DNA from: Ideonella sp. WA131b
Lineage (GTDB): Bacteria > Pseudomonadota > Gammaproteobacteria > Burkholderiales > Burkholderiaceae_C
Direction of reading: 5' to 3'
Assembly: GCA_023657425.1 (NCBI GenBank)
Contig: JAGTJW010000001.1
Coordinates: forward strand, 2,108,001 to 2,172,000
Length of the DNA stretch: 64,000 bases
The notes beneath the pieces were generated by a model. It was given only the letters and a program-made list of their open reading frames with translations. It did no database searches and was not told the origin of the DNA. Positions within the stretch are counted from its first letter, which is position 1, and every line of letters begins with the position of its first letter. Below are positions 20,445-51,004 of the stretch, in pieces. Position numbers and translations under genes: made by a program.

Positions 20445-21256
20445 GGTGTCGGGTTCCGGTTCGTGAGGGTGCGGCCGAAGAAGCGCAGCGTGTCTTCGAG
20501 GTGCTGCGCCCAGTAGGCCCAGCCGTGGCCGCCGTCGTGCTCGGCGTAGTCGTGCGCGATGCCGGCGGCCTGCAGTTCGGCGTGCAGCTGGCGGTTGGCG
20601 GCGATGAAGGGGTCGTCGCGCCCGCAGTCGAAGCGCAAGGCGGGCAGCGGCGCGTCGGCACAGCGGAGCGAGGCGATGACGCTGCGGTCTGCGGGCGCCG
20701 CGGCCCAGCCGCTGCGAGATTCCACCATCAGTGCGTCGAGTTGCCCTGCTTCGGTCACCGACGAGTGCCCGGCCGCTGCCACGAAGCGCTGCGGGTGCCG
20801 GCCGGCCAGCCTCAGCGCGCCGAAGCCACCCATGCTCAGGCCCGCGATACACAGCGGCGAAGCCACGGTGCACGCGCTGCTGGCGGCGCGTGCTACGGCC
20901 GGCACCTCGTCGACGATCCAGCGTTCGAAGTCTTGCTCGGCATGGCACACGTAGCCCGAGCCATCGCCCCACAGCCCGTCGCTGGGCATGGCCAGCACCA
21001 TCGGCGGGATCTCGCCCGCGTCGATGAGCCGCTGCGCCGTGAGGTGCGCGCCACCCTGGAAGGCCCAGGCCCAGTGCGAGCCGTGCACGCCGTGCAGCAG
21101 CAGCACCAGCGGCACGCCCTGCAGCGCAGCGGCCTGCGGCGGCACGAACAGCAGCACATCGGCCCGCTGGCCCAGCGCCGCACTCTTGACGGTGACGAAG
21201 CGCAGGCCGGGTGGCGCCAGGGCCGGGTCCGAGACTTCGAGGGTGCGGAACATCAT
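20441..21256 (-). CDS. Alpha/beta-hydrolase esterase (CE1/esterase D-like)
   Basis: 271 aa. The oxyanion region LVLLLHGVHGSHWAW and the nucleophile elbow AGLSMGGFGAL with Ser141 define an alpha/beta hydrolase of the esterase-D/CE1 group; Asp in DCGRDDPF and His in DGGHGWAYW complete a plausible triad. No signal peptide is visible, so it probably acts in the cytoplasm on imported oligosaccharides, for example removing acyl groups. It overlaps the GH92 start by four bases and follows the PhyH gene by 95 bases. Acyl substrate unknown. Confidence 0.85.
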   Translation of the reverse strand: MMFRTLEVSDPALAPPGLRFVTVKSAALGQRADVLLFVPPQAAALQGVPLVLLLHGVHGSHWAWAFQGGAHLTAQRLIDAGEIPPMVLAMPSDGLWGDGSGYVCHAEQDFERWIVDEVPAVARAASSACTVASPLCIAGLSMGGFGALRLAGRHPQRFVAAAGHSSVTEAGQLDALMVESRSGWAAAPADRSVIASLRCADAPLPALRFDCGRDDPFIAANRQLHAELQAAGIAHDYAEHDGGHGWAYWAQHLEDTLRFFGRTLTNRNPTP

Positions 21257-21351
21257 GGGTCAGGTCGCTGCACCGGCGCCAGGTTGATGGCCGCGCCCGT
21301 CGCCGATGTCGGCGGCACCCACCCATGCAAACGTGGCCACAGGCTGGCTGC

Positions 21352-34077: not shown

Positions 34078-37000
34078 ATGCAAAGACAACAACTGCGAGG
34101 GATCCGTCCGACCCCCGTCTGCGTGGCCGTGTGGGCCGTCCTGATGGCGCCGTTGGCCTGGGCGCAGACGGCGCCCGCCGCTCCGCCTGCCGCCACGGCC
34201 CCCGGGGCGCCGGCAGCCCAGGCAACCCAGGCAACCCAGGCAACCCAGGCAACCCAGGCAACCCAGGCAGCGCCGGCAGCGCCGGCAGCCCCCGCGGCGC
34301 AAGGCGCGACGCAGTCGCTCGTGATCTCGGGCTCGCGGATCCGCCGCGACAACTTCGACACCCCGGCGCCGGTGCAGATCATCCGGTTCGAGGATTCGGT
34401 GGTCGCCGGCTTCGTCAGCACGACCGACGTGCTTCAGGGCAACCAGGTCACGGGCGGGCAGGCCCAGATCAACAACGCCTACGGCGGTTTTGTCACCGAT
34501 GGCGGCCCGGGCGCCAACACCATCGGCTTGCGCGGCTTCGCGCCGACCCGCACGCTGATCCTCCTGAACGGCCGCCGTCTCGCCCCGTCGGGCACCCGCG
34601 GCTCGGTGGGCGCCGCCGACCTGAACGTGCTGCCCTCGACCATCGTCGACCGCATCGAGATCCTCAAGGACGGCTCGTCCTCGATCTATGGCTCCGATGC
34701 CGTGGCCGGTGTGATCAACATCGTCACCAAGCGCAACCTCACGGGCATCACCGCCGAGGCGCGCGTGACGGCCCCGACCGAGGGTGGCGGCGAGGAGCAG
34801 CGCTTCGCGCTGATCGGTGGCCATGTCGGTGACCGGTCCTACCTCACCGCCTCGTACGAGTACTTCAAGCGTCAGGACCTCACCCTGGGCGACCGCAGCT
34901 GGACGCAGTGCAACACCGACTACCGCCGCACCAGCGCCAACGGCGTCGTCGGTGCCTGGGGCAGTTTCGACTTCGTCGATCCGGCGACTGGCAAGCCCAA
35001 GTGCTACCCGATCAGCGGCACGGGCTCGAACGGCGTCACCATCAACACCTTGGGCACGAGCAACTTCACCGGTGTCGGCGCCCCCGGCTCGGTGGGCACG
35101 GCGTTCAACCGCTGGCGTCCCAACGCCAACGTCACGACGGGCCTGGTGGGTTTCGAGGGCGTGGGGGGTGGTGCCAACAGCCTGAACGTGCGCGACACCT
35201 TCGACCCGCGCATGCTGAAGCGCTCGCTGATCTCGCCCGTCGAGACGCACAATGTGTTCGTCCAGGGCGGCATGGATCTCGCCTCTGCCGGTGCCGCCGA
35301 GCTCTACTTCGAGCTGCTGTACAACCGCCGCGAGTCCAGCCAGGTGGGCTACCGCCAGCTGACGCTCGACTACATGCGCTTCAGCCCGCTGATCCCGGCC
35401 AACCTGGCCTTCAGCAACTTCCTGCCGCCGCAGTCCACCACCAACGGCGTCAATGTCGGCGTGCGCGCCTTCGTCGGCTTCGGCAACGACACCTCCTCGC
35501 AGACGGTGGACGTGGGCCGCGCGGTCGTCGGTGTCCGCGGCAACCTGGGGGCCACCGGCTGGGAGTACGACGTCTATGCGACCCAGCACAACAGCAAGGG
35601 TGAGTACACCTTCCAGTCCTTCCTGACGGACCGCCTTGCAAAGAGTTCAGACGTCGTCGTGGCGGGAGCCGGCTTTGCGTGCAAGGACAGCACCGCCGTC
35701 GGCTGCGTGGCGGCCCCTGCGCTCACGCCCGCCGTGATCGGCGGCCAGCTGCCTGCCGATTGGGTGAACTACGTGTTCCGGCCCGTCACCGGCACGAGCA
35801 AGTACAAGGAAAGCGTGGTCTCCGCCTCGATGACCGGCCCGCTGTTCAAGCTGCCGGCCGGCAGCGTGAAGGCAGCTGTGGGCGTCGAGACCCGGCGCTT
35901 CGAGATCGATGACACGCCGGCGCTCGACTCGCAGAACGGCAACCTCTACGGCCTGACCTCGTCGGCGATCACCCGCGGCACCGACAGCGCGAACGACGTG
36001 TTCGCCGAGATCGAGGTGCCGCTGCTGGCCAAGGTGCCCGGTGCCGAGCAGCTCACCGCCAGCCTTTCCAGCCGCAAGGCCGACTACAAGTCCTACGGAC
36101 CCGGCTCCACCTACAAGGCGGGCCTGGTCTGGTCGCCCGCCAAGTGGCTGACGCTGCGGGCCACCAGCGGCACCTCCTACCGGGCACCGGCGCTGTACGA
36201 GCAGTTCCTGGGCGCGACGACCGGCTTCGTGTCGCAACAGAACGATCCCTGCAACAACTGGGACTCGCCGACCAACGCGGACACCCCCCGCGCGGCCAAT
36301 TGCGCCTCCGAGAACCTGCCGGCGGGCTTCACGAACAACCAGAGCATCACGGTGGTCAGCTCGGGGGGGCGGGCCTCAGGCCTGAAGGCCGAGACCTCGG
36401 AGAACAACACCTTCGGCATCATCCTGCAGCCCGCGCTGCCCACCGGCTGGGGCGACCTCTCGGTGGCGCTGGACCGTTTCGACATCAAGGTCGAAAACGG
36501 CGTGGCCCGTGCCGGCGGCGTCGCCATCCTCAACCGCTGCTACGACGATCCGGCGTTCCGCGCCGGTGGTGGGCTTTGCCGGCTGGTGTCCGCCCGCACG
36601 TCCTCCAACGCCCTGACGGTGAACGACAGCTACGTCAACCTGGCCACGGACGTCGTCCGCGGGCTGGACCTGACGGTGCGCTACACCAACAACGTCTGGA
36701 TCGGCCGTCTGCGCGTGAACCTCAACCTCACGAGGTACGCCTTCCAGGCCAGCAAGCTGTTTGCCGATGATGAACTCGACAACGTCAACGGTTCGCTCAA
36801 CAACCCGTCGCGCACGGGCGCGCTCGAGTTCAACTACGAGGTGAAGGACTGGCGCTTCTACTTCGGCACCGAATACATCGGCGAGATGTCGTCGTACGAG
36901 TACCTGGGCCAGGATCCTGACACCAGCACCTTCCTGCTGAAGGTTCCGAGCTACCTCACGCACCAGGCGTCGGTGGGCTATCGGGCCGACAAGTGGCGCT

Positions 37001-37149
37001 TGACGGTGGGTGTGCGCAACCTGACCAACAAGGAGCCGCCGGTGATCTCGGCGCAGGCGGGCTACAACCGCGTGGGCAACGCGCCGCTGTTCAGCGGCTA
37101 CGATTACATCGGCCGGCGTGTGTTCGTGACCGGCTCGCGATCGTTCTGA
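34078..37149 (+). CDS. TonB-dependent outer-membrane receptor
   Basis: 1023 aa. A signal peptide ends near AWAQTAP and is followed by a low-complexity Ala/Pro/Gln/Thr region (about 30-78). The plug domain runs about 80-210 (VISGSRIRRDNFDTPAPVQI, NTIGLRGFAPTRTLILLNGR, IEILKDGSSSIYGSDAVAG). A 22-strand barrel follows and ends in the usual aromatic residue (VTGSRSF). The no-TonB-box, SGSRI-type plug resembles receptors abundant in Xanthomonadales, Sphingomonadales and Caulobacterales. An S9 peptidase gene follows, so imported peptides are a reasonable substrate guess. No siderophore genes are nearby. Confidence 0.93.
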   Translation: MQRQQLRGIRPTPVCVAVWAVLMAPLAWAQTAPAAPPAATAPGAPAAQATQATQATQATQATQAAPAAPAAPAAQGATQSLVISGSRIRRDNFDTPAPVQIIRFEDSVVAGFVSTTDVLQGNQVTGGQAQINNAYGGFVTDGGPGANTIGLRGFAPTRTLILLNGRRLAPSGTRGSVGAADLNVLPSTIVDRIEILKDGSSSIYGSDAVAGVINIVTKRNLTGITAEARVTAPTEGGGEEQRFALIGGHVGDRSYLTASYEYFKRQDLTLGDRSWTQCNTDYRRTSANGVVGAWGSFDFVDPATGKPKCYPISGTGSNGVTINTLGTSNFTGVGAPGSVGTAFNRWRPNANVTTGLVGFEGVGGGANSLNVRDTFDPRMLKRSLISPVETHNVFVQGGMDLASAGAAELYFELLYNRRESSQVGYRQLTLDYMRFSPLIPANLAFSNFLPPQSTTNGVNVGVRAFVGFGNDTSSQTVDVGRAVVGVRGNLGATGWEYDVYATQHNSKGEYTFQSFLTDRLAKSSDVVVAGAGFACKDSTAVGCVAAPALTPAVIGGQLPADWVNYVFRPVTGTSKYKESVVSASMTGPLFKLPAGSVKAAVGVETRRFEIDDTPALDSQNGNLYGLTSSAITRGTDSANDVFAEIEVPLLAKVPGAEQLTASLSSRKADYKSYGPGSTYKAGLVWSPAKWLTLRATSGTSYRAPALYEQFLGATTGFVSQQNDPCNNWDSPTNADTPRAANCASENLPAGFTNNQSITVVSSGGRASGLKAETSENNTFGIILQPALPTGWGDLSVALDRFDIKVENGVARAGGVAILNRCYDDPAFRAGGGLCRLVSARTSSNALTVNDSYVNLATDVVRGLDLTVRYTNNVWIGRLRVNLNLTRYAFQASKLFADDELDNVNGSLNNPSRTGALEFNYEVKDWRFYFGTEYIGEMSSYEYLGQDPDTSTFLLKVPSYLTHQASVGYRADKWRLTVGVRNLTNKEPPVISAQAGYNRVGNAPLFSGYDYIGRRVFVTGSRSF
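34219..34269 (+). repeat. Nine-base tandem repeat encoding Gln-Ala-Thr
   Basis: CAGGCAACC is repeated five times without change (34219-34263) and followed by a partial sixth unit. It encodes (QAT)5-QA at residues 48-64 of the TonB receptor, between the signal peptide and the plug. Two GCGCCGGCA units follow. The identical units suggest slippage; changes in copy number would keep the frame. Confidence 0.92.
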
Positions 37150-37274: not shown

Positions 37275-39357
37275 ATGAAGTTCTCCTCGACCGCCACCGC
37301 CCTGGCCTTGCCGCTGATCACGGCCGCGCTGCTGAGCCCGGCGGCCAAGGCCCAGGCGCCGGCTGCGAATGCCCAGCCCGTGCGCGTGCCCACGATCGAG
37401 CAGCTGGCGCAGTTCCCCCGCATGACGGGCTTTACGCTGTCGCCCGACGGCCAGCACCTGGCGGCCATCGAAAGCCAGGGCGACACCCGCAGCGTGCTGG
37501 TCTGGAAAACCGCCGACACGGCGAGCCGGCCTACGGTGATCGGCGCCAGCAACATGCAGATCCAGGGCGTCAGCTTCGTCAAGAACGACATGCTGGCCGT
37601 GCGCATGTCGCAGCCGGTGGACATCCGATTCGGCGGCGTGCTCACCAAGACTTTTGTCGGCAAGCTGCTGATCACGGACCTGGAGGGCAAGACCTGGAAA
37701 GAGCCGTTGGAGTCGGCCGGCATCAACCGCTCCGAGAGCGATCAGCAGGCGCGCGAGATCACGGCGCCCGTTGTGCGCAGCCGCATGCTGAAGGACCCCG
37801 ACCACATCATTTTGGAAGGGGCCGCCATCGGCGCGCGCGACCTGTTCCGCTACAACGTGCGCACGGGCGTGGCGACGCGGCTGATGCGGCTGTCGGAGAA
37901 CGACGACGAGGTCGTCGTCGACTCTCAGGGCCGCCCCCGCGCCAAACGGCGCATTGGATTCCAGGGCTCGGACATCTTCGTCGCCACCGACATCCGCAAC
38001 CTCGAGACCGGTACCTGGGAGGAGCATTTCCGAACCCTGGTGAAGGACCGGGATGTCACCACGGTGCTGGGCCCTGGCACGAAGCCGGGCACCATGATCG
38101 TGCGCAGCAACCGTGGGCGCGAGCGGGCGGCGCTCTACGAGTATGACGTGGCCAGGCGCCAGCTCTCCGAGCCGCTGTTTGATCACCGTTTCTTCGAGGC
38201 CTTGCGCCCGCTGCGCCTAGAAGGGGACAAGGCCGACGATGAGGCGCCCTACGATGGCTTCACGTACGAGGGGCCCTTTGGCAACGACGTGCACTGGGTC
38301 AACCCGCAGTTCGAGTCCCTGATCCAGGGCCTGGCGCAGGCGCTGGGCATCAAGGAGGCCGAGCAGACGCTGGTGGACCCGGCCACCGGGGCCCGTGCCA
38401 CCGCCCGGATGCGGGATGGCGTGAACATCACCATCCTCTCGCAGCACGCCCCGAAGGACCAGCCGGCGACCCATGTGTTCCGGGTTTCGGGCGCCAACTA
38501 CCCCCCCGAGTTCTACATGCTGCGGGGCCAGCGGCTCACGCTGCTGGCGCGGGCCTACCCGGAACTGGACCGCCGGGCCCTGGGCAGCACGCGGCTGGTG
38601 TACTACGCGGCGCGTGACGGGATGCAGATTCCCGCCTACTTGACGATGCCCCATCCGCAGCTCTGCGGCCCGGGGCCCTACTCGGCCGTGGTCCATCCAC
38701 ACGGCGGCCCCTGGGCGCGAGACACGCAGGACTTCGACGCCTCGGGCTGGCTGCCGTTGATGGTGTCGCGCTGCCACGTGGTGCTGCAGCCGCAGTTCCG
38801 CGGCTCCGACGGCTGGGGGCGCACGCTCTGGAAGGCGGGTGACGCCGAGTGGGGCCAGAAGATGCAGGACGACAAGGACGACGGCGCCCAGTGGCTGGCC
38901 GCGCAGAAGCTCGTCGATCCGGCGCGGGTGGCGATGTTCGGCTACTCGTACGGCGGTTACGCGGCCATGGCGGCCGCGGTGCGGCCCAACGGCCTGTACA
39001 AGTGCGCGATCGCCGGGGCGGGCGTGTCCGACATCGAGAAAATCGGGACTCGCTTGCTACACGAACCCCTTCTTCCGCGCGGCCCAGGAGCCCACGGTGC
39101 GGGGCCTGAGCCCGGCGAAGCAGGCGGACAAGATCAAGATCCCGATCATGGTGTTCCACGGCGACCGCGACACCATCGTGCCCTTGATCCAGTCGGACGA
39201 GTTCGTGAAGAACGGGCGCAGTTCGGGCCAGCCGGTGGAGTTCCACGTCCAGGTGGACACCGCCCACGGCCCGGTGTGGCGGCGCAGCGAAAAAACGCGC
39301 GAGCTGCGGCTGATCGCCGACTACCTGGCCAAGGGCTGCGGCGGCTCGGGGCTCTGA
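37275..39357 (+). pseudogene. S9-family (prolyl oligopeptidase-type) peptidase, frameshifted
   Basis: About 694 codons if restored. A signal peptide ends near AAKAQAP; a beta-propeller-like region covers about 35-410; the catalytic alpha/beta-hydrolase domain begins near residue 450 (YSAVVHPHGGPWARD). Nucleophile Ser558 sits in FGYSYGGYAAM in the first frame. After GVSDIEKIGTR the first frame loses all likeness, while the next frame resumes with CYTNPFFRAAQEPTVRG and contains HGDRDTIVP (Asp), VDTAHGP (His) and the family's end GCGGSGL at 39357. The shift lies at 39051-39060 (CGCTTGCTAC, one base too many). It separates Ser from Asp and His, so the product would be inactive unless the base is a sequencing error. 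Confidence 0.85.
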
Positions 39358-39475
39358 CCCTGGGGAGCGTGGGCGGCGGCCGGCCCAGGCGCTGCTGGCA
39401 TGATCGCGCCGCGGCGGGCCCGGAGATTGCATGCAGATCCTGGCGCCCCGCCGGCTGTCCAGGAGCTTGCTGCCC

Positions 39476-42400
39476 GTGTCCATCCATGTCGCGCTGAACC
39501 ACGTCACCCACTACCGCTACGACCGGCGCGTGGGGCTGTCGCCGCAGGTCGTGCGCCTGCGGCCGGCGCCGCACTGCCGCACGCGCATCCTCAGCTACTC
39601 GCTGCGGGTGGAGCCCGGCCAGCACTTCATCAACTGGCAGCAGGACCCGTTCGCCAACCACCTGGCGCGGCTGGTGTTCCCCGAGAAGACGCGCGAGTTC
39701 AAGGTCACGGTCGACCTCGTGGCCGAGATGTCGGTGCTCAACCCGTTCGACTTCTTCCTGGAGCCGCACGCCGAGAACTGCCCCTTCGAGTACGACGCTG
39801 ACAGCCGCCAGGAGCTGCTGCCCTACCTGGCCCGGGGCGAGCTCACGCCGCGCTTCAAGGCCTTTGTCGAGAGCATCCCGCGCCATCACGGGAAAGACCG
39901 GATCCGCACCATCGACTTCCTCGTGGCGCTGAACCAGCGTCTGCAGAAGGACATCCGCTACCTCATCCGCATGGAGCCCGGCGTGCAGACGCCGGAGGTC
40001 ACGCTCACCAACGGCAGCGGCTCCTGCCGCGACAGCGGCTGGCTGCTGGTGCAGACGCTGCGCCACCTGGGGCTGGCGGCGCGTTTCGTCAGTGGTTACC
40101 TGATCCAGTTGAAGCCCGACGTGATGGCGCTCGACGGCCCGAGCGGCAGCGAGACCGACTTCACCGACCTGCACGCCTGGTGCGAGGTGTTCCTGCCGGG
40201 CGCCGGGTGGATCGGCCTCGATCCCACCAGCGGCCTGCTGGCCGGCGAGGGCCACATCCCCGTGGCCTGCACGCCCGAGCCCGGCAGCGCTGCGCCCGTG
40301 AGCGGCGCGGTCGACGAGTGCGAGGTGAGTTTCGGCCACCACATGCAGGTCACGCGCATCCACGAGAGCCCGCGCGTGACGCTGCCCTACACCGATGCGC
40401 AGTGGTCGAAGATCGTCGCGCTGGGCCACGAGGTCGACCAGCGCCTGACGGACGGCGACGTGCGCCTGACGATGGGCGGCGAGCCCACCTTCGTGGCCGT
40501 GGGCGACCGCGACGCCGCGGAGTGGAACACCGACGCCCTCGGCCCCACCAAGCGCGGCCTGGCCACCGAGCTGGTGCACCGTCTGCGCGAGCGCTACGGC
40601 CGCGGCGGCTTCCTGCACTTCGGCCAGGGCAAGTGGTACCCAGGCGAGCAGCTGCCGCGCTGGGCGCTCAGCATCTGCTGGCGCGCCGACGGCCAGCCCT
40701 GCTGGGGCGATCCCTCGCTCTTTGCCGACGAGCGCGACACCCACCGCTACACCGCAGCCGACGCTGAAGCCTTCATCCGCACGCTCACCAGGAAGCTGGG
40801 CCTGGCCGACGAGCACCTGCTGCCCGGCCACGAGGACACCTGGTACTACCTCTGGCGCGAGCGCCGGCTGCCCGTGAACGTGGACCCGTTCGACGCGCGG
40901 CTGGACGACGAGCTCGAGCGCGCCCGCCTGCGCCGGGTGTTCCAGCAGGGGCTGGACGCCACCGTGGGCTGGCTGCTGCCGCTCAAGCGCGAGTGGCGCG
41001 TGGGCACGGCCGGCCCGCAGTGGGTGACCGGGCCCTGGTTCCTGCGCGACGAGCGCCTGTACCTGATCCCGGGTGATTCGCCCATGGGCTACCGCCTGCC
41101 GCTGGACAGCCTGCCCTGGGCCGCCCAGGGCGACCAGCCCTGGACGCTGGCGCAGGACCCGTTCGCGCCGCAGCCCCCTCTGCCGGTGGCGGCGGCGGTG
41201 AGATCGCAGTTCGCGGCCGCGGGCGGCATGGCCGGCAGCCCGGCGGCGCTGGCGGCTGCCGCGGGCGCCGATGGCGGGCTGGACCACGACGGCTTCCACG
41301 CGGACGGCACCGCGGCCTTAGCCGGTGCGGCAGGTGTCGACCGCATGGCGTTTGTGCCAGGCGCGGGCAGCCGCGGCGGGGCCACCGAGCACACGCCCGA
41401 GCACGCCTTCCCACGCGATGCGGCCACCGTGCCGCCGCGCTTCGTCTCGGCCGGCGAGGTCACGCGCACGGCGCTGTGCGTGGAGGTGCGCGACCCGCAG
41501 CGCGGCAACGGCCCGAAGGCCGAACGCTGGGCCGAAAAGCAGCAAGGCGGCAAGCGCGGCGTGCTCTGCGTCTTCATGCCGCCGCTGCGCTTTCTGGAGG
41601 ACTATCTCGAGCTGCTCGCCGCCATCGAGGCCACGGCCGCCGAGCGCGGCGTGAAGATCGTGCTCGAGGGCTACCCGCCGCCGCGCGACCCGCGCCTGAA
41701 GCTGCTGCAGGTCACGCCCGACCCCGGCGTCATCGAGGTCAACATCCACCCCGCGCACGACTGGGCCGAGCTGGTCGACCACACCGAGTTCCTCTACGAG
41801 GCCGCGCACCACAGCCGCTTGAGCGCCGAGAAGTTCATGCTCGATGGCCGCCACACCGGCACCGGCGGCGGGAACCACTTCGTGCTGGGCGGCGCCACGC
41901 CGGCCGACAGCCCCTTTCTGCGCAGGCCCGAGCTGCTCACCAGCCTCATCACCTATTGGCAGAACCACCCGAGCCTGAGCTACCTGTTCAGCGGCCTGTT
42001 CATCGGCCCCACGAGCCAGCACCCGCGGTTCGACGAGGCGCGCGGGGATCAGGTCTACGAGGTCGAGATCGCGCTGGCCGAGATCGAGCGCCAGGTGGGG
42101 CTGCACGGCCAGGTTCCGCCGTGGCTCATCGACCGCACGCTGCGCAACCTGATGGTCGATGCCACGGGCAACACCCACCGCACCGAGTTCAGCATCGACA
42201 AGCTCTACTCGCCCGACGGCCCAGCGGGGCGGCTGGGCCTGCTGGAGCTGCGCGCCTTCGAGATGCCGCCGCACGCGCGCATGAGCCTGGCGCAGCAGCT
42301 GCTGATGCGCACCCTGGTGGCCTGGTTCTGGCAAGAGCCCTACCGTGGCCGCGGCGCCACGCGCCTGACGCGCTGGGGCACCGGCCTGCACGACCGCTTC

Positions 42401-43048
42401 ATGCTGCCCACTTTCGTGCAGCAGGACTTCGAGGATGTGATCGCCGACCTGCAGGCCGCCGGCTTCGCCTTCGACGCGGCGTGGTTCGCGCCGCACCTGG
42501 GCTTCCGGTTCCCGCTCATCGGCGATGTGCAGGTGGCGGGCATCGAGCTGACGCTGCGCCATGCGCTCGAGCCCTGGCACGTGATGGGCGAGGAGGGCGC
42601 ACCGGGTGGCACGGTGCGCTACGTCGACTCGTCGCTGGAGCGGCTGGAGGTGAAGGCCACGGGCCTGAACGGCAACCGGCATGTCGTCACCGTCAACGGC
42701 CGTGCGCTGCCGCTGCAGCCCACCGGCCGCGTCGGCGAGGCCGTCTGCGGCGTGCGCTACCGCGCCTGGAACCCGCCGTCGGCGCTGCACCCCACCATCG
42801 GCGTGCACGCGCCGCTCACCTTCGACATCGTCGACACCTGGGTGGGCCGCAGTCTCGGTGGCTGCCGCTACCACGTGGCGCACCCGGGCGGCCGCAACCA
42901 CGATGCGTTCCCGGTCAACGCCTACGAGGCCGAGAGCCGGCGCCTGGCGCGCTTCTTCCGCATGGGCCACACGCCGGGCCCGATGAGCGTGCAGCGTGCC
43001 GCCCCGAGCCTGGAGCTGCCGTTCACGCTGGATCTCCGCGCCGCCTGA
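39476..43048 (+). CDS. Transglutaminase-like and DUF2126 fusion protein
   Basis: 1190 aa. The N-terminal transglutaminase-like domain has an alpha-lytic-style N-terminal region (VSIHVALNHVTHYRYDR) and a papain-fold triad Cys184 (GSCRDSGWLL), His233 (DLHAWCEVF) and Asp249 (GLDPTSG). The rest, from about 310, is DUF2126, with GGEPTFVAVGDRD, GGGNHFVLGGATPADSPF and LRNLMVDATGNTHRTEFS; comparative studies have grouped it with carboxylate-amine ligases of the glutamine-synthetase type (recalled, not checked). GTG at 39476 is preferred to ATG at 39431 because the family starts with SIH and AGGAG lies ten bases ahead. First gene of a five-gene operon. A low-complexity Ala/Gly linker lies at about 560-650. 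Confidence 0.88.
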   Translation: MSIHVALNHVTHYRYDRRVGLSPQVVRLRPAPHCRTRILSYSLRVEPGQHFINWQQDPFANHLARLVFPEKTREFKVTVDLVAEMSVLNPFDFFLEPHAENCPFEYDADSRQELLPYLARGELTPRFKAFVESIPRHHGKDRIRTIDFLVALNQRLQKDIRYLIRMEPGVQTPEVTLTNGSGSCRDSGWLLVQTLRHLGLAARFVSGYLIQLKPDVMALDGPSGSETDFTDLHAWCEVFLPGAGWIGLDPTSGLLAGEGHIPVACTPEPGSAAPVSGAVDECEVSFGHHMQVTRIHESPRVTLPYTDAQWSKIVALGHEVDQRLTDGDVRLTMGGEPTFVAVGDRDAAEWNTDALGPTKRGLATELVHRLRERYGRGGFLHFGQGKWYPGEQLPRWALSICWRADGQPCWGDPSLFADERDTHRYTAADAEAFIRTLTRKLGLADEHLLPGHEDTWYYLWRERRLPVNVDPFDARLDDELERARLRRVFQQGLDATVGWLLPLKREWRVGTAGPQWVTGPWFLRDERLYLIPGDSPMGYRLPLDSLPWAAQGDQPWTLAQDPFAPQPPLPVAAAVRSQFAAAGGMAGSPAALAAAAGADGGLDHDGFHADGTAALAGAAGVDRMAFVPGAGSRGGATEHTPEHAFPRDAATVPPRFVSAGEVTRTALCVEVRDPQRGNGPKAERWAEKQQGGKRGVLCVFMPPLRFLEDYLELLAAIEATAAERGVKIVLEGYPPPRDPRLKLLQVTPDPGVIEVNIHPAHDWAELVDHTEFLYEAAHHSRLSAEKFMLDGRHTGTGGGNHFVLGGATPADSPFLRRPELLTSLITYWQNHPSLSYLFSGLFIGPTSQHPRFDEARGDQVYEVEIALAEIERQVGLHGQVPPWLIDRTLRNLMVDATGNTHRTEFSIDKLYSPDGPAGRLGLLELRAFEMPPHARMSLAQQLLMRTLVAWFWQEPYRGRGATRLTRWGTGLHDRFMLPTFVQQDFEDVIADLQAAGFAFDAAWFAPHLGFRFPLIGDVQVAGIELTLRHALEPWHVMGEEGAPGGTVRYVDSSLERLEVKATGLNGNRHVVTVNGRALPLQPTGRVGEAVCGVRYRAWNPPSALHPTIGVHAPLTFDIVDTWVGRSLGGCRYHVAHPGGRNHDAFPVNAYEAESRRLARFFRMGHTPGPMSVQRAAPSLELPFTLDLRAA

Positions 43049-43054
43049 TCGTCG

Positions 43055-45709
43055 ATGTCGGCCATGCCCACGCCCGGCCAGGAGTCGCTGCCCTTCGACG
43101 GCGGTGCCCCGGCTGCGGGTGCGGCGGCGCACGCCTTCTCCGCGCACGCGCTGCCGCCGGAGCCCGGCGTGTGGGACGAGCTGCGCGGCGGCGGCACGCT
43201 GCGCCCGGCCTGGCAGCGTTTCGTGGCCGCGGTGCCGGCGCCTGCCGGCGGCCTTTCGACGGCCGAGGATCTGGACCGCCGTGTGGCGCAGGTGGAGCAG
43301 CGCATCCAGCTCGACGGCGTCACGCACAACGTGTTCGCCGATGCGGGGCCGGGCGCCACGACGGGTGGTGTCTCGGCGCGGCCGTGGTCGCTGCAACTGC
43401 TGCCGTTGATCATCGAAGCGGCCGACTGGGCCGCCATCGAGGCCGGCGTGGTGCAGCGCGCGGAACTGCTGGAACGCATGCTGGCGGATCTCTACGGCCC
43501 GCAGACGCTGCTGCACGAAGGCCTGCTGCCACCGGCGCTGCTGCTGCGCCATCCGGGCTGGCTGCGGCCGATGATCGGCGTGCCGCCGGCCGGCGGGCAG
43601 CGCCTGTTCATCGCCGCCTTCGACCTGGCCCGCGGCCCCGACGGGCGCTGGTGGCTGGTGGCGCAGCGCACGCAGGGTCCGTCGGGCCTGGGTTACGTGC
43701 TGCACAACCGGCTCGTCATCTCGCTGCAGTTCCCGGAGGCCTTCGCACAGTTGCGCGTGCAGCGCATCGCCAGCAGCTACCGGCTGCTGCTCGACGCCCT
43801 GGAGCAGCGCGCGCAGCAGGTGGCCGGGCACGCCAGCCCGCGCGTGGTGCTGCTGACGCCCGGGCCCTACAGCGAGACCTATTTCGAGCACGCCTACCTC
43901 GCGCGCTATCTGGGCCTGCCGCTGGTGGAGGGTGGCGACCTGACGGTGCGCGGCGGGCGCCTTTACCTCAAGACGGTGGACGGACTGGAGCCCGTGCACG
44001 GCGTGATGCGCCGGCTGGACGACGACTGGTGCGATCCACTGGAGCTGCGCCCCGACAGCGCCCTGGGCGTGCCCGGCCTGCTGCAGGCCGCTCGGGCCGG
44101 CACCGTGGTGATGGCCAACGCGCTGGGCAGCGCCTTCCTGGAGACGCCGGCCATCCAGGGCTTCCTGCCCGGCATCGCCGAGCGCTTGCTCGGCGAGCCG
44201 CTGGCCCTGCCGAGCCTGCCGACCTGGTGGTGCGGCGAGGCCGCGGCCTGGACCGACGTGCGCGACACGCTGGCCGACAAGGTGGTGCGCAGCACCTTCC
44301 CGCGCGGCGGGCGGACCTCACAAGCCTACAACCTGGGGTTGGCCTACCCCCCGGACGTTGAGCGCAGCGCCGTTCCCGTGCACGAAGACCCCGACGCCTG
44401 GACGGTCCAGGGCCGCCTGCGCTTCTCGCGGGCGCCCATCTGGGGCGACGGCGTGGTCACGCCGCGCCCGGCCATGGTGCGTGTGTACGCCATCGCCGAC
44501 GGCCGCGAGGGCCGGCCGCGCTGGCATGTGCTGCCCGGCGGCATGACACGCGTGGCCCGCCGCGAAGACGCCAGCATCAGCATGCAGCGCGGTGGCACCA
44601 GCCTCGACACCTGGGTCATGACCGAGGGGCCGGTGGACGCCTTCAGCATGCTGCCGCAGCGCCTGCGCGTCGATGACCTTGCCGCCCACCAGCGCCCGGT
44701 GAGCAGCCGCACCGGCGAAAACCTGTTCTGGCTCGGGCGCTACACCGAGCGCACCGAGCAGCTGGTGCGGCTCGCCCGCAGCACGCTGATGCGCATCGAC
44801 GCCGACGCCGAGATGGACGCCCCGCTGCGCAGCGCGCTGTCGCAGCTTGCGGTGAGCACGGGCCTGGCACCGCCCGGCGTGCCCACGCTGTCGCAGAGCC
44901 CGCTTCACTTCGAGCGCGCGGTGCTGGCGGCGCTTGGCGACGCACGCGGCATCACCAGCGTCGCCTACAACCTGCAGGCGCTGGAGCGCACGGCCCTGGC
45001 GCTGCGCGAGCGGCTGGCTCCCGAGCAGTGGAGCCTGGTGCGGCAGATGAGCGAGGGTTTCTGCAGCGCGCTGGAGACGCTGCACGGCGAGCTGCCGCCG
45101 CCCGCGCAGGTGTTGCCGGCGCTGGACCGGCTGGCCCTGCAACTGGCCGCGGCCACCGGCGCGCAGACCGACCGCATGACACGCGACCACGGCTGGCGGC
45201 TGCTCACCGTCGGCCGGCTGCTGGAGCGGCTGCAGGGGCTGGCGCTGCGGCTGCTGGCCTTTCTCGGGCCGGCCGACGCCGGGCCGCCCCTGGGCGCCTT
45301 GGGCCACGTGGCCGGCGTCGAGATGCTGCTGGAGCAGTTCGACAGCGTCATCACCTTCCGCGCGCGCTACCAGCGCCATGAAGACCTGCTCGCGCTGACC
45401 GAGGTGCTGGTGCTGGACAGCACGAACCCGCGCGCCTTTGCCGGCGTGCTGCGCCGACTGCGCACCGAGCTCGGCAAGCTGCCGGGACCGCCGGAGTCGC
45501 ACGGGCCGCTGCTGGCGCTGCTGCCGGCCGAGGGCGCGGGACTGTCCTGGGCAAGGCTGCGCGGACTCGAAGACGAGCCCGTGGCCGCCACGGCCGCAGC
45601 GCTGCGCATGTTGTCGGCCGATCTGCTGCAGGCTGGCCACACGTTGGCCGACCGCATCGCCGAGCGCTACTTCACGCTGGCCCACGGCAGCGACCAGCGC
45701 ATCGGCTGA
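43055..45709 (+). CDS. Circularly permuted ATP-grasp fused to alpha-E domain
   Basis: 884 aa. Residues about 60-500 form a circularly permuted type 2 ATP-grasp (DUF404/DUF407-like; LLTPGPYSETYFEHAYLAR, VMRRLDDDWCDPLELR). Residues about 549-880 are an alpha-E domain (ENLFWLGRYTERTEQLVRLA). The later genes at 46740 and 48206 encode the same two parts separately. At the glycine-rich loop this copy has VVRSTFPRGGRT (Arg412) where the stand-alone ATP-grasp has VVKEVHGAGGYG (Lys375), so nucleotide binding may differ. Only six bases follow the previous stop. Predicted to form or modify amide bonds; no reaction is established. Confidence 0.85.
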   Translation: MSAMPTPGQESLPFDGGAPAAGAAAHAFSAHALPPEPGVWDELRGGGTLRPAWQRFVAAVPAPAGGLSTAEDLDRRVAQVEQRIQLDGVTHNVFADAGPGATTGGVSARPWSLQLLPLIIEAADWAAIEAGVVQRAELLERMLADLYGPQTLLHEGLLPPALLLRHPGWLRPMIGVPPAGGQRLFIAAFDLARGPDGRWWLVAQRTQGPSGLGYVLHNRLVISLQFPEAFAQLRVQRIASSYRLLLDALEQRAQQVAGHASPRVVLLTPGPYSETYFEHAYLARYLGLPLVEGGDLTVRGGRLYLKTVDGLEPVHGVMRRLDDDWCDPLELRPDSALGVPGLLQAARAGTVVMANALGSAFLETPAIQGFLPGIAERLLGEPLALPSLPTWWCGEAAAWTDVRDTLADKVVRSTFPRGGRTSQAYNLGLAYPPDVERSAVPVHEDPDAWTVQGRLRFSRAPIWGDGVVTPRPAMVRVYAIADGREGRPRWHVLPGGMTRVARREDASISMQRGGTSLDTWVMTEGPVDAFSMLPQRLRVDDLAAHQRPVSSRTGENLFWLGRYTERTEQLVRLARSTLMRIDADAEMDAPLRSALSQLAVSTGLAPPGVPTLSQSPLHFERAVLAALGDARGITSVAYNLQALERTALALRERLAPEQWSLVRQMSEGFCSALETLHGELPPPAQVLPALDRLALQLAAATGAQTDRMTRDHGWRLLTVGRLLERLQGLALRLLAFLGPADAGPPLGALGHVAGVEMLLEQFDSVITFRARYQRHEDLLALTEVLVLDSTNPRAFAGVLRRLRTELGKLPGPPESHGPLLALLPAEGAGLSWARLRGLEDEPVAATAAALRMLSADLLQAGHTLADRIAERYFTLAHGSDQRIG

Positions 45710-45720
45710 GGGAGCGCACC

Positions 45721-46743
45721 ATGCCGGCCACCGCCCCGATGCTGCTGGAAGTGCGCCACGAGACGCGCTACGCCTACTCGGCGCCGGTGACGCTGGCGCA
45801 CCACCTGGTGCACCTGCAGCCGCTGGTCGACACGCACCAGCGCTTGCACCACTTCGCGCTCGACGTGAGCCCCGAGCCTGCCCAGGCCCGCGACAGCACC
45901 GATGCCTGGGGCAACGCGCAGCGCCACTTCGGCCTGGTGCAGCCGCACGACCGCCTCACGGTGCTGGCCACCAGCCGAGTGGCCGTGTGGCCGCGCTTTT
46001 CGGCGCTGCGGCCCGAGGCCTCACCGACCTGGGGCGAACTCGCCGCGCGCGTGCGTTACGTGGCCCGCGCGCCGTTCGTGGCGGCGGCCGAGTTCGCGCT
46101 GCCTTCGCCCTACGTGCCGCGCCTGCCGGCGCTGCGCGAGCTGGGCGCGGGCCTGTTCACGCCCGGCCGCCCGGTGGCCGAGGCGGTGCTGGCGCTGATG
46201 CACCGGTTGCACGCGGAGTTCAGCTATGAGAGCCGCAGCACCGAGGTGGACACGCCCTTGCAGCAGGTGCTGCTGCAGCGGCGCGGGGTGTGCCAGGACT
46301 TCGCCCACCTGCTGGCCGGTGTGCTGCGCGCCTGGGGGCTGCCGGCGCGCTATGTGAGCGGCTACCTGCTCACGCACGCCCCCGCCGCTGCCGGCCCGGG
46401 CGAGGCCCACGCCGGCACCGCGATGCTGGGCGCCGACGCCTCGCACGCCTGGGTGCAGGTGTGGTGCCCGGGTACGCCCGGTGTACCCGCCGGCCCCGGC
46501 GGCGCCGACGACGCCTGGCTCGATCTCGATCCCACCAACGACTGCGTGCCCGGCAGCGGCCACGTGCGGGTGGCCGTGGGCCGAGACTTCGGCGACGTCA
46601 CACCGCTGCGCGGCGTGATCCGCGGCGGCGGCCACCACACCCTGGCCGTGGGCGTGACGACGCGGCGGCTCGATCGCTTCGGCCACGCCCAGCAGGCCCA
46701 CGCGTTGCTCTCCCCGACACCGATGGAGAACACCGGATCATGA
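45721..46743 (+). CDS. Transglutaminase-like cysteine protease-fold protein
   Basis: 340 aa, no signal peptide. The N-terminal bacterial transglutaminase-like region (LEVRHETRYAYSAPVTLAHH) is followed by the catalytic core with Cys191 (RGVCQDFAHL), His242 (ASHAWVQVW) and Asp270 (DLDPTND). Such proteins are predicted peptidases or amidases rather than true crosslinkers. A ribosome binding site GGGAG lies six bases ahead. The stop overlaps the next ATG (ATGA). It is the second transglutaminase-like protein of the operon. Confidence 0.9.
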   Translation: MPATAPMLLEVRHETRYAYSAPVTLAHHLVHLQPLVDTHQRLHHFALDVSPEPAQARDSTDAWGNAQRHFGLVQPHDRLTVLATSRVAVWPRFSALRPEASPTWGELAARVRYVARAPFVAAAEFALPSPYVPRLPALRELGAGLFTPGRPVAEAVLALMHRLHAEFSYESRSTEVDTPLQQVLLQRRGVCQDFAHLLAGVLRAWGLPARYVSGYLLTHAPAAAGPGEAHAGTAMLGADASHAWVQVWCPGTPGVPAGPGGADDAWLDLDPTNDCVPGSGHVRVAVGRDFGDVTPLRGVIRGGGHHTLAVGVTTRRLDRFGHAQQAHALLSPTPMENTGS

Positions 46744-48188
46744 AACCGGCCTTCGACGAGATGAACACCGCCGCTGGCGCTGTACGGCCGCAGTACGAGG
46801 TCTACGCCGGGTGGCTCAAGCGCCAGCCGGCCGAGGCCATGCGCTCGCGGCGTGCCGAGGCCGAGATGATCTTCCGCCGTGTCGGCATCACCTTCGCCGT
46901 CTACGGCGCGAAGGACGAAGACGCCCACTCGGAGTTCGGGGGCACCGAGCGCCTGATCCCTTTTGACCTCATCCCGCGCGTGATCCCCGGCGCCGAGTGG
47001 AAGCGCATGGAGGCCGGCCTGCGCCAGCGTGTGACGGCGCTCAACCGCTTCATCGACGATGTCTACCACGGGCAGGAGATCCTCAAGGCCGGTGTCGTGC
47101 CGGCCGAGCAGGTGCTGAACAACGCGCAGTTCCGCAAAGAGATGATGGGCGTGGCGGTGCCCGGCGGCGTGTACTCGCACATCAGCGGCATCGACATCGT
47201 GCGCGCCGACACGGGGCAGGGCGGCCAGTACTACGTGCTGGAAGACAACCTGCGCGTGCCCAGCGGCGTGAGCTACATGCTCGAGAACCGCAAGATGATG
47301 ATGCGGCTGTTCCCCGAGCTGTTCAGCATGCACCGCGTCGAGCCGGTGGCGCACTACCCCGACCTGCTGCTGGAGACGCTGCGCGCCGTCTCGCCCAGCG
47401 GCGTCAACGAGCCCACGGTGGTGGTGCTCACGCCCGGCATGTACAACAGTGCGTACTTCGAGCACGCCTTCCTGGCGCAGCAGATGGGCGTGGAGCTGGT
47501 GGAGGGGCAGGACCTGTTCGTGAAGGACGGCTTCGTCTACATGCGCACGACGCAGGGCCCCAAGCGCGTGGACGTGATCTACCGCCGCGTCGACGACGAC
47601 TTCCTCGACCCCCGGGCCTTCCGCGCCGACAGCACGCTGGGCTGTGCCGGGCTGCTGGACGTGTACCGCGACGGAAACATCACGCTGGCCAATGCCATCG
47701 GCACCGGCATCGCCGACGACAAGAGCATCTATCCCTACGTACCCAAGATGGTGGAGTTCTACCTGGGCGAGAAGCCCATCCTGAACAACGTGCCCACCCA
47801 CCTGTGCCGCGAGAAGGACGACCTCGCCTACGTGCTGGCCCACCTGCATGAGCTGGTGGTGAAGGAGGTGCACGGCGCCGGGGGCTACGGCATGCTGGTG
47901 GGGCCGGCGGCGAGCAAGGCCGAGATCGCCGGCTTCCGCGCCGTGCTCGAGGCCAACCCGGCCAACTACATCGCGCAGCCCACGCTGGCGCTGTCCACCT
48001 GCCCCACCTTCGTGGATGCCGGCTTTGCGCCGCGGCACATCGACCTGCGCCCCTACGTGCTGAGCTCGGGCAAGACCGTGCAGACGGTGCCGGGCGGCCT
48101 CACGCGCGTGGCGCTGAAGGAGGGTTCGCTGGTGGTCAACTCGTCGCAGGGCGGGGGCACGAAAGACACCTGGGTTCTGGAAGACTGA
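46740..48188 (+). CDS. Circularly permuted type 2 ATP-grasp protein
   Basis: 482 aa, the full length of the stand-alone family (DUF404 plus DUF407). Landmarks are RVGITFAVYG, FDLIPRVIPGAEWKRMEAGL, YYVLEDNLRVPSGVSYMLEN, LTPGMYNSAYFEHAFLAQQM and VVKEVHGAGGYGMLVG with candidate ATP-binding Lys375. ATP-grasp enzymes join a carboxylate to an amine through an acyl-phosphate; substrates of this family are not established. It is coupled to the transglutaminase-like gene by a four-base overlap and to the alpha-E gene 17 bases downstream. Confidence 0.93.
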   Translation: MKPAFDEMNTAAGAVRPQYEVYAGWLKRQPAEAMRSRRAEAEMIFRRVGITFAVYGAKDEDAHSEFGGTERLIPFDLIPRVIPGAEWKRMEAGLRQRVTALNRFIDDVYHGQEILKAGVVPAEQVLNNAQFRKEMMGVAVPGGVYSHISGIDIVRADTGQGGQYYVLEDNLRVPSGVSYMLENRKMMMRLFPELFSMHRVEPVAHYPDLLLETLRAVSPSGVNEPTVVVLTPGMYNSAYFEHAFLAQQMGVELVEGQDLFVKDGFVYMRTTQGPKRVDVIYRRVDDDFLDPRAFRADSTLGCAGLLDVYRDGNITLANAIGTGIADDKSIYPYVPKMVEFYLGEKPILNNVPTHLCREKDDLAYVLAHLHELVVKEVHGAGGYGMLVGPAASKAEIAGFRAVLEANPANYIAQPTLALSTCPTFVDAGFAPRHIDLRPYVLSSGKTVQTVPGGLTRVALKEGSLVVNSSQGGGTKDTWVLED

Positions 48189-48205
48189 CCTCGAGGAGCA
48201 CGACG

Positions 48206-49171
48206 ATGCTGTCCCGCACCGCCGACCACCTGTTCTGGATGGCGCGCTACATGGAGCGCGCCGAGAACACCGCGCGCATGCTCGACGTGAACTACCAGAC
48301 CTCGCTGCTGCCGCAGAGCGCCGACACGGCCCTGGCCGGCTGGAGCGGGCTGCTGAGCATCAGCGAGCTGACCTGGGCCTTCAACCAGCAGCATCGGCAG
48401 ATCGACGCCCGCAGCGTCATGGACTTCATGGTGCGCGACGAGGGCAACCTCTCCAGCATCTGGAACTGCCTGCGCGCGGCGCGCGAGAACGCGCGTGCGG
48501 TACGCGGCGCGCTGACGACCGAGGTGTGGGAGACGCAGAACCAGACCTGGCTCGAGTTCAACCGCATGCTCAAGGCCGGCGAGTTCGAGCGCGACCCAGG
48601 TGCCTTCTTCGAGTGGGTGAAGTTCCGCAGCCACCTGAGCCGCGGGGTCACGGTGGGCACGATGCTGCAGGACGAGGCGCTGCACTTCCTGCGCATCGGC
48701 ACCTTCCTGGAGCGCGCCGACAACACCGCGCGGCTGCTCGACGTGAAGTTCCAGGCCCTGGCCGGCGAGGACTATTTCGGCCCGGACGGCAGCAAGGAGC
48801 AGCAGGAGGTGGACTTCTACCACTGGAGCGCGATCCTGCGGTCGGTGTCCGGCTTCGAGATCTACCGCAAGGTCTACCGCAACGTGATCCGCCCCGAGAA
48901 GGTGGCCGAGCTGCTCATCCTGCGCCCCGACATGCCGCGCTCGCTGGCGGCCTGCATGAACGATGCTGTGGCCAACCTGCGGCTGGTGGCCAACCAGCAC
49001 AGCGATGAGACGCTGCGCCGTGCCGGCCGGCTGCAGAGCGATCTGCGCTACGGCCGCATCGACGAGATCCTGGCCACGGGCCTGCACGCCTACCTGACGC
49101 AGTTCCTCGACCGTGTGGGCGACCTTGGCGTGGGCATCAGCCGCGACTTCCTGGTGCCGATGGCGGCTTGA
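48206..49171 (+). CDS. Alpha-E domain protein (DUF403)
   Basis: 321 aa, entirely helical, starting MLSRTADHLFWMARYMERAE, the signature opening of alpha-E proteins. It has no known enzymatic residues and is thought to work with the ATP-grasp partner encoded just upstream. GAGG precedes the ATG. It is the last gene of the operon; argH follows convergently with 65 bases between. Confidence 0.93.
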   Translation: MLSRTADHLFWMARYMERAENTARMLDVNYQTSLLPQSADTALAGWSGLLSISELTWAFNQQHRQIDARSVMDFMVRDEGNLSSIWNCLRAARENARAVRGALTTEVWETQNQTWLEFNRMLKAGEFERDPGAFFEWVKFRSHLSRGVTVGTMLQDEALHFLRIGTFLERADNTARLLDVKFQALAGEDYFGPDGSKEQQEVDFYHWSAILRSVSGFEIYRKVYRNVIRPEKVAELLILRPDMPRSLAACMNDAVANLRLVANQHSDETLRRAGRLQSDLRYGRIDEILATGLHAYLTQFLDRVGDLGVGISRDFLVPMAA

Positions 49172-49236
49172 GGCTGTTCACGGGCCGCTCCGGGCCGATT
49201 GTGGTCCACGACCGATTGGGGGCCGACCGCAGCAGT

Positions 49237-50634
<1,398 letters not shown>

Positions 50635-50700
50635 CGACACGGTGGGTGCTCGGTGGAAGAGGGCTTCGCATTATCCCGGCCACCCCGATCGCGCCCACCC

Positions 50701-50991
50701 ATGTCCGACCCCGGCGCCCGCTCCGCCGCGTTCGACCCCTGCCACCCGGCGCTGGCCCTGCGCGTGGTGCTGCTGGTGCAGGCCGCGTTGGCCGTGCTGG
50801 CGCTGGCCGGCGCGGCCGATGCGGCGCACGGGTGGCAGCGGCGATCGATGCGTCGCTGGGCGCGATGGCGACCCTGCTCACCTCTGCGGGGCTGGTCGCC
50901 GTTGACTTGGAGGCGGGTGGCGCCTGGCAGGGCGCGGCGGCGGCTGTCGGCGGTGCGGGCGGCGTTGGAGGCCGGCGGCGCCACGGACTGA
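50701..50991 (+). pseudogene. AlgZ/LytS-type histidine kinase remnant
   Basis: The first 45 codons (FDPCHPALALRVVLLVQAAL, then VLALAGAADAAHGW) resemble the start of AlgZ-like LytS-family kinases that sit next to argH in many Burkholderiales. The frame then becomes Arg/Trp-rich and unlike the family, while the neighbouring frame keeps a hydrophobic stretch (SLGAMATLLTSAGLVAVDL), suggesting a frameshift near 50830. The stop comes at 50991, and neither the kinase domain nor an AlgR-type regulator gene is present before ppc. The family assignment rests on recalled similarity. Confidence 0.5.
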
Positions 50992-51004
50992 TCGGGTGCA
51001 CCGA

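Follow-up and report, generated by a model that had tools for sequence, protein, structure and literature searches.

A transglutaminase, DUF2126, ATP-grasp and alpha-E operon of Ideonella sp. WA131b with a conserved sigma54-type promoter box and a distant Anbu gene

Gene content of the operon

The 64-kb window considered here (the whole stretch C1:2108001-2172000 of the Ideonella sp. WA131b genome; feature coordinates are window positions) contains a compact operon of putative amide-bond enzymes. Five plus-strand genes, g1 to g5, fill positions 39476-49171, separated by intergenic gaps of 6, 11, -4 and 17 bases, the negative value denoting a four-base overlap of g3 and g4 (Table 1). The operon belongs to the ATP-grasp/alpha-E/transglutaminase/DUF2126 amidoligase family, which was already predicted in 2009 and has been partly studied. 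A first-pass annotation of the sequence had described a five-gene set in which ligase-type domains are paired with peptidase-type domains; Pfam matches and gene calls confirm its domains and coordinates as well as the pairing itself. None of the five proteins matched an NCBIfam model at an E-value of 0.001. The genome was found to hold only two Bact_transglu_N genes, both in the operon. The GTG start of g1 at 39476 lies in a start region conserved across 14 aligned sequences, a few of which use TTG, while an alternative, longer open reading frame (ORF) would begin with an ATG at 39431, whose first base coincides with the final base of the promoter box discussed below.

Among the 50 Foldseek matches listed for the DUF2126 model, all are glutamine synthetase (GS) or GS-like, but weak, and the domain has no sequence match in the Protein Data Bank (PDB). 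By motif resemblance, the invariant residues E52, H517, E640 and R642 (numbering of a 906-residue piece) are tentative candidates for counterparts of the GS metal ligands. The alpha-E protein g5 is all-helical in its AlphaFold2 model (pLDDT 88), for which there was no clear fold match. It carries an internal repeat with a duplicated ER motif, the two halves aligning with a score of 71, whereas 1000 shuffles gave at most 49.

Table 1. Features of the operon and its surroundings, in window coordinates
Feature	Position	Strand	Description
Sigma54-type -24/-12 promoter box	39416..39431	+	GGGCCCGGAGATTGCA; score 14.5/16.5; 0.2% of 5000 random 150-nt window stretches reach 14.5
g1	39476..43048	+	Transglutaminase-like protease with a fused DUF2126 domain (predicted amidoligase, GS-like); starts with GTG; 1190 aa; Pfam Bact_transglu_N + Transglut_core + DUF2126 (1317 bits)
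g2	43055..45709	+	Fusion of a circularly permuted ATP-grasp with alpha-E; changed putative metal/phosphate motif; 884 aa; Pfam CP_ATPgrasp_2 + Alpha-E
g3	45721..46743	+	Stand-alone transglutaminase-like cysteine protease; 340 aa; Pfam Bact_transglu_N + Transglut_core; PDB relative 3isr
Possible second, internal sigma54-type box	46694..46709	+	AGGCCCACGCGTTGCT; inside the end of g3; score 13.5, weak alone (4.4% of random locus stretches reach 13.5)
g4	46740..48188	+	Stand-alone circularly permuted ATP-grasp ligase, putative active site intact; 482 aa; Pfam CP_ATPgrasp_2/1 (556/517 bits)
g5	48206..49171	+	Stand-alone alpha-E protein; 321 aa; Pfam Alpha-E (328 bits)
argH	49237..50640	-	Lyase_1 and ASL_C2; downstream of g5

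Sigma54-type promoter boxes and probable nitrogen control

The strongest functional clue to the operon is its link to sigma54 and NtrC. Candidate sigma54 sites were scored as 16-base matches to the -24/-12 consensus (maximum 16.5, GG and GC required). In the alignment of 14 sequences, the box ahead of g1 is a conserved block, with the consensus TGGCCCGGAGCTTGCA, in an otherwise variable upstream region. It is preceded at window 39395-39406 by a second conserved block, which reads TACTGGCATCATCG in most of the aligned regions.

The pattern holds across relatives. Family-wide counts cover loci L004-L083, in which the 150 nt upstream of each gene were scanned and a score of 14 or more was taken as a box; upstream regions shorter than 150 nt, and matches not beginning within 15 residues of the query start, were left out. 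Random 150-nt locus stretches reach 14 in 1.9% of cases and 14.5 in 0.8%. A box precedes 18 of 24 copies of g1 and 34 of 39 copies of g4 that lead their loci, as well as 25 of 29 copies of g4 that follow g3. Other internal genes have a box in 1 of 174 cases (g1 after g5 or g3, 0/24; g2, 0/20; g3, 1/56; g5 after g4, 0/74), not counting four copies of g5 without a preceding g4 (0/4). Fisher's test of leading g1 and g4 versus internal g1, g2, g3 and g5 gives p = 3e-40, a value that takes no account of shared ancestry and excludes internal g4. For g1, the predicted box tracks promoter position rather than the gene itself, since it is present when g1 leads and absent when g1 is internal. The g4 gene is preceded by a box whether it leads or lies within the operon, which suggests a second transcription start ahead of it. 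Beyond the family, loci in other families of the order have a box at 9 of 13 leading copies of g4, two with the full consensus (e.g., TGGCACGCGGCTTGCT), at neither of two leading copies of g1 and not at the single g4 that follows g3.

Both regulators are encoded in the genome, RpoN and an NtrC whose match, together with a neighbouring piece, reaches 673 bits (cut-off 558.6). The NtrC enhancer palindrome was not found upstream of the operon in the window, where the best match covers 6 of 10 positions. Relatives give a mixed picture: sites matching at least 9 of 10 positions precede 8 of 39 leading g4, 1 of 22 leading g1 and 3 of 24 internal g1 genes, against 0.66% of random stretches.

Nitrogen-limitation induction itself has been seen only in homologues. 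The Burkholderia cenocepacia genes I35_5080-83 are listed among the shared sigma54/NtrC targets, with expression 6.0- to 9.4-fold lower in an ntrC mutant (PMC5491218). In Pseudomonas putida, growth on nitrate instead of ammonium raises PP_2685 (Anbu) and PP_2688 (ATP-grasp) by log2 values of 4.44 and 3.99, or about 22- and 16-fold (PMC8050072), and PP_2685-2687 are up under nitrogen limitation (PMC3325844). Marine metagenomes associate operon-type domains with urea metabolism domains (PMC3597751), and a table of RpoN motifs in Bradyrhizobium lists a CP_ATPgrasp_1 gene with TGGCCCGGCCCTTGC at -113 (PMC13207237). Nitrogen-limitation control has been published for individual species; the promoter pattern extends it to a large part of the family within the order, with and without a linked Anbu gene. 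It also points to a growth condition for experiments, making the system more testable.

Catalytic residues

Active-site alignments, restricted to stop-free sequences of sufficient length, reveal that both protease triads are invariant: C184/H233/D249 in all 47 rows of g1 and C191/H242/D270 in all 70 rows of g3. Similarly, the EDNxR motif of g4 (E168, D169, N170 and R172) and its K375 each stand at 1.00 in 85 rows. Active-site loss throughout the operon, which the first-pass annotation had named as evidence that would count against an amide-bond system, was not seen; both triads and the g4 motif are intact.

The fused ATP-grasp module of g2 is different. Across its 55 rows, R invariably takes the place of g4 N170, and Q that of R172 in 52. 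The position of E168 is usually occupied by A, S or N, just 17 rows have K at that of K375, and the GGYG loop lacks conservation. D152, D285, D286 and D290 are retained. Because the putative metal/phosphate motif is changed, g2 is likely altered or inactive as a ligase, and for the same reason the two ATP-grasp modules of the operon are not equivalent. The residue evidence singles out g4 as the ATP-grasp protein to assay first, and g2 may not work alone.

Gene orders in relatives

Related loci are carried by Rubrivivax, Aquabacterium, Sphaerotilus and other Burkholderiales. The order g1-g2-g3-g4-g5 is found exactly in 20 of 80 such loci and with extra genes in 6 more, g4-g5-g1-g2-g3 in another 13, and the remainder are variants or incomplete loci. 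This recurrence of the window's gene order shows that the arrangement is not due to chance. Across the 80 loci, g1-g2-g3 forms a separate module, sited either before or after g4-g5. In this module a transglutaminase-DUF2126 fusion adjoins an ATP-grasp/alpha-E fusion and a further transglutaminase, a composition that fits the DUF2126 amidoligase set, which we take to be COG4196. A different arrangement prevails in 14 loci that hold genes of the set and are centred on Anbu, a proteasome-family gene. These contain homologues of g4 (51-71%) and g5 (28-65%), and 10 of the 14 run g4, g5, a transglutaminase of another type (28-32% to g3) and Anbu.

Location of Anbu

According to the first-pass annotation, the set lacks Anbu. 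This holds for the operon and the 64-kb window, in neither of which Anbu was found, but not for the genome. A profile built from 13 Anbu proteins of the order detects an intact copy on another contig, C3:101739-102476 (E 3.4e-104), which is full length and stop-free. Its translation begins MTYCVGIRLNAGLVFLSDSRTNAG / MTYCVGIRLNAG and contains FRKM, and by eye it keeps the Thr, Asp and Lys named as catalytic in the Yersinia study. The detected proteasome-family genes of the genome are this Anbu and HslV (C1:677976-678494, with HslU adjoining), both outside the window. Absence of Anbu from the genome had been the outcome of a Pfam Proteasome search that returned only HslV, and is rejected as a false negative, since the Anbu profile detects the gene. 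The protein scores 19.5 bits with the Pfam Proteasome model, under the cut-off of 22.4, so that Pfam-based surveys may undercount Anbu.

Co-occurrence was read by hand in a sample of 150 genomes of the order, including that of Ideonella sp. WA131b (G000). The gene set is common: alpha-E is matched in 83 genomes, DUF2126 in 51 and Anbu in 79, one of the last being a weak partial match (G044). Near-full-length Anbu matches, a few with one stop read through, occur in 77 of the 83 alpha-E genomes. The two genes share a contig at a distance of no more than 20 kb in 69 of these 77; they are on different contigs or more than 200 kb apart in the other eight (G000, G005, G048, G060, G090, G102, G113 and G127), where contig breaks are perhaps behind the separation in some cases. 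All four sampled genomes of the family to which Ideonella sp. WA131b belongs, its own included, are among the eight. Because Anbu is distant in all four yet present, it is unlinked in this lineage, not lost. Congruent with this, Anbu was found near none of the 80 related loci, many of which are short.

Replacement of Anbu by DUF2126 is rejected as a rule, as 46 of the 51 DUF2126 genomes also have Anbu; the exceptions are G003, G066, G100, G108 and G120. G107, which completes the six alpha-E genomes lacking Anbu, has a partial alpha-E match only and no DUF2126. Two minor observations concern the surroundings and the relatives of Anbu. The stretch ahead of the gene in G048, G090 and G127 (loci L135-L137) ends in what we take to be a MutS-like C-terminus. 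Loci L121, L124 and L129 have weak Proteasome-family matches starting MTTC or MTTI, which presumably resemble the bacterial proteasome homologue (BPH), not Anbu.

Comparison with known systems

One of the closest precedents is the Anbu-type amidoligase operon predicted by Iyer et al. in 2009 (as reported in PMC6376114 and PMC5666114). Its first two genes are homologous to g4 and g5, likewise a circularly permuted ATP-grasp beside an alpha-E protein. Transglutaminase-like genes are also present here (the N-terminus of g1, and g3), Anbu is encoded in the genome, and nitrogen-limitation induction has been published for the P. putida Anbu-type genes. Unlike that operon, the present one contains neither Anbu nor the corresponding type of transglutaminase, and it adds DUF2126 and the g2 fusion. 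The cluster I35_5080-5083 of B. cenocepacia H111, which depends on sigma54 and NtrC, shares DUF404/407, DUF403, transglutaminase and large transglutaminase genes; it differs in having four genes, and an ATP-grasp/alpha-E fusion is not named in the available part of its description.

At the level of single proteins, g4 has a close homologue, matching along almost its entire length, in PDB 3n6x (E 2.1e-214), annotated as a putative glutathionylspermidine synthase. That functional name is putative, and we know of no reaction for 3n6x. Escherichia coli Gss offers a parallel in mode of action, pairing an ATP-grasp ligase with a cysteine amidase. Its E-x-N at 330-332 has the spacing of E168-x-N170 in g4, and this motif and the lysine at 533 presumably bind Mg-ATP. 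The resemblance is one of motifs only: hhalign of g4 against the single E. coli Gss sequence gave no usable alignment, and in Pfam at E 0.001 g4 matched the CP_ATPgrasp families and no glutathionylspermidine synthetase family. Compared with ligases of the GS superfamily (GS, GmaS and 1-naphthylamine GS), DUF2126 is a much larger domain, and the fold resemblance is weak.

The open-licence literature searched contains no complete reaction for these families, which agrees with the first-pass statement that no product or reaction is established. The nearest published activity is the release of phosphate from ATP by a Yersinia ATP-grasp homologue (PMC6376114). Nor did we meet in that literature the g1-g5 arrangement with an unlinked Anbu, the family-wide promoter pattern or the altered g2 motif.

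Proposed function and alternatives

The reading that we favour, with confidence a little above even, is that the operon encodes a sigma54/NtrC-controlled, nitrogen-starvation-induced set of amide-bond enzymes, a ligase/amidase system. Promoter conservation and homologues support the regulation, and protein families and folds suggest the chemistry. Weighing against it, P. putida PP_2686-2688 rise under nitrogen limitation in all three strains of one study, including an rpoN mutant, which speaks against strict sigma54 dependence in that species; Anbu (PP_2685) was nearly flat there, at 1.12, 4.81 and 1.45 (PMC7801951). Under the proposed scheme, nitrogen shortage would lead phosphorylated NtrC and RpoN to switch on transcription of the operon, with g4 perhaps having an additional start of its own. 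The g4 ligase would activate a carboxylate with ATP and join it to an amine, with the alpha-E protein g5 as its partner, while the GS-like DUF2126 domain of g1 would form a further amide, for which a gamma-glutamyl carboxylate is a plausible site. The fused g2 would serve as a catalytically altered or regulatory partner, and amides of this kind would also be the substrates for hydrolysis or transfer by the transglutaminase-like domains of g1 and g3. The separately encoded Anbu may process the product or its carrier. The net effect would be that amine nitrogen is captured, stored or released.

More speculatively, these steps might form a gamma-glutamyl-amide cycle of nitrogen starvation, a proposal that we regard as rather unlikely in this specific form. 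DUF2126 and g4 would build a pool of amine- or peptide-amides, alpha-E and the altered g2 would act as scaffolds, the transglutaminase-like amidases, both fused and free-standing, would release this pool, and Anbu would be an unlinked downstream hydrolase. If it exists, such a cycle would buffer nitrogen by a route different from cyanophycin, polyamine gamma-glutamylation and pupylation.

The same domains lend themselves to other accounts. One is the tag-and-trim cycle credited to Iyer et al. (2009) in PMC6376114 and PMC5666114, in which g4, g2 and DUF2126 would tag proteins with a peptide or amino acid, the transglutaminase-like proteases would remove the tag, and Anbu would degrade the tagged proteins. 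In favour of such a cycle, ligase and peptidase domains share one operon, and Anbu is present in this genome as in 77 of the 83 alpha-E genomes. However, with gaps of at most 17 bases the operon, the only place considered for a tag gene, has no room for one; neither activity nor a complex was found for Yersinia Anbu (PMC6376114), and the available part of another report links no AAA unfoldase to Anbu (PMC5666114). We consider protein tagging improbable.

Still less probable is that the product of the operon is a metabolite for secretion or storage that contains several amide bonds, nitrogen control being a mere trigger. Two ligase folds and paralogous ATP-grasp/alpha-E modules are suggestive of stepwise synthesis, but the operon accommodates no exporter, carrier protein or precursor peptide; it is flanked by a TonB receptor and an S9 peptidase upstream and by opposite-strand argH and ppc downstream. 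The account to which we give least credence is ordinary proteolysis for nitrogen scavenging, with the cysteine proteases doing the work and a purely regulatory role for the ATP-grasp and alpha-E proteins. Invariant protease triads and nitrogen-starvation control of homologues would suit it; against it, the ATP-grasp motif of g4 looks complete throughout 85 rows, and the Yersinia homologue does release phosphate from ATP (PMC6376114).

Neighbouring genes

Elsewhere in the window lie a GH92 glycosidase gene (18252-21326) and the TonB-dependent receptor gene (34078-37149), with no connection to the operon seen. A sixth, downstream gene of the operon was considered and rejected: two 607-aa ORFs, 49168-50991 (plus strand) and 49178-51001 (minus strand), have no Pfam match, and argH occupies the region. 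Just upstream of the operon, the gene for the S9 (prolyl oligopeptidase-type) peptidase, at 38757-39357, is split over two frames, covering profile positions 9-104 and 129-209, which points to a disrupted gene or an error in the sequence.

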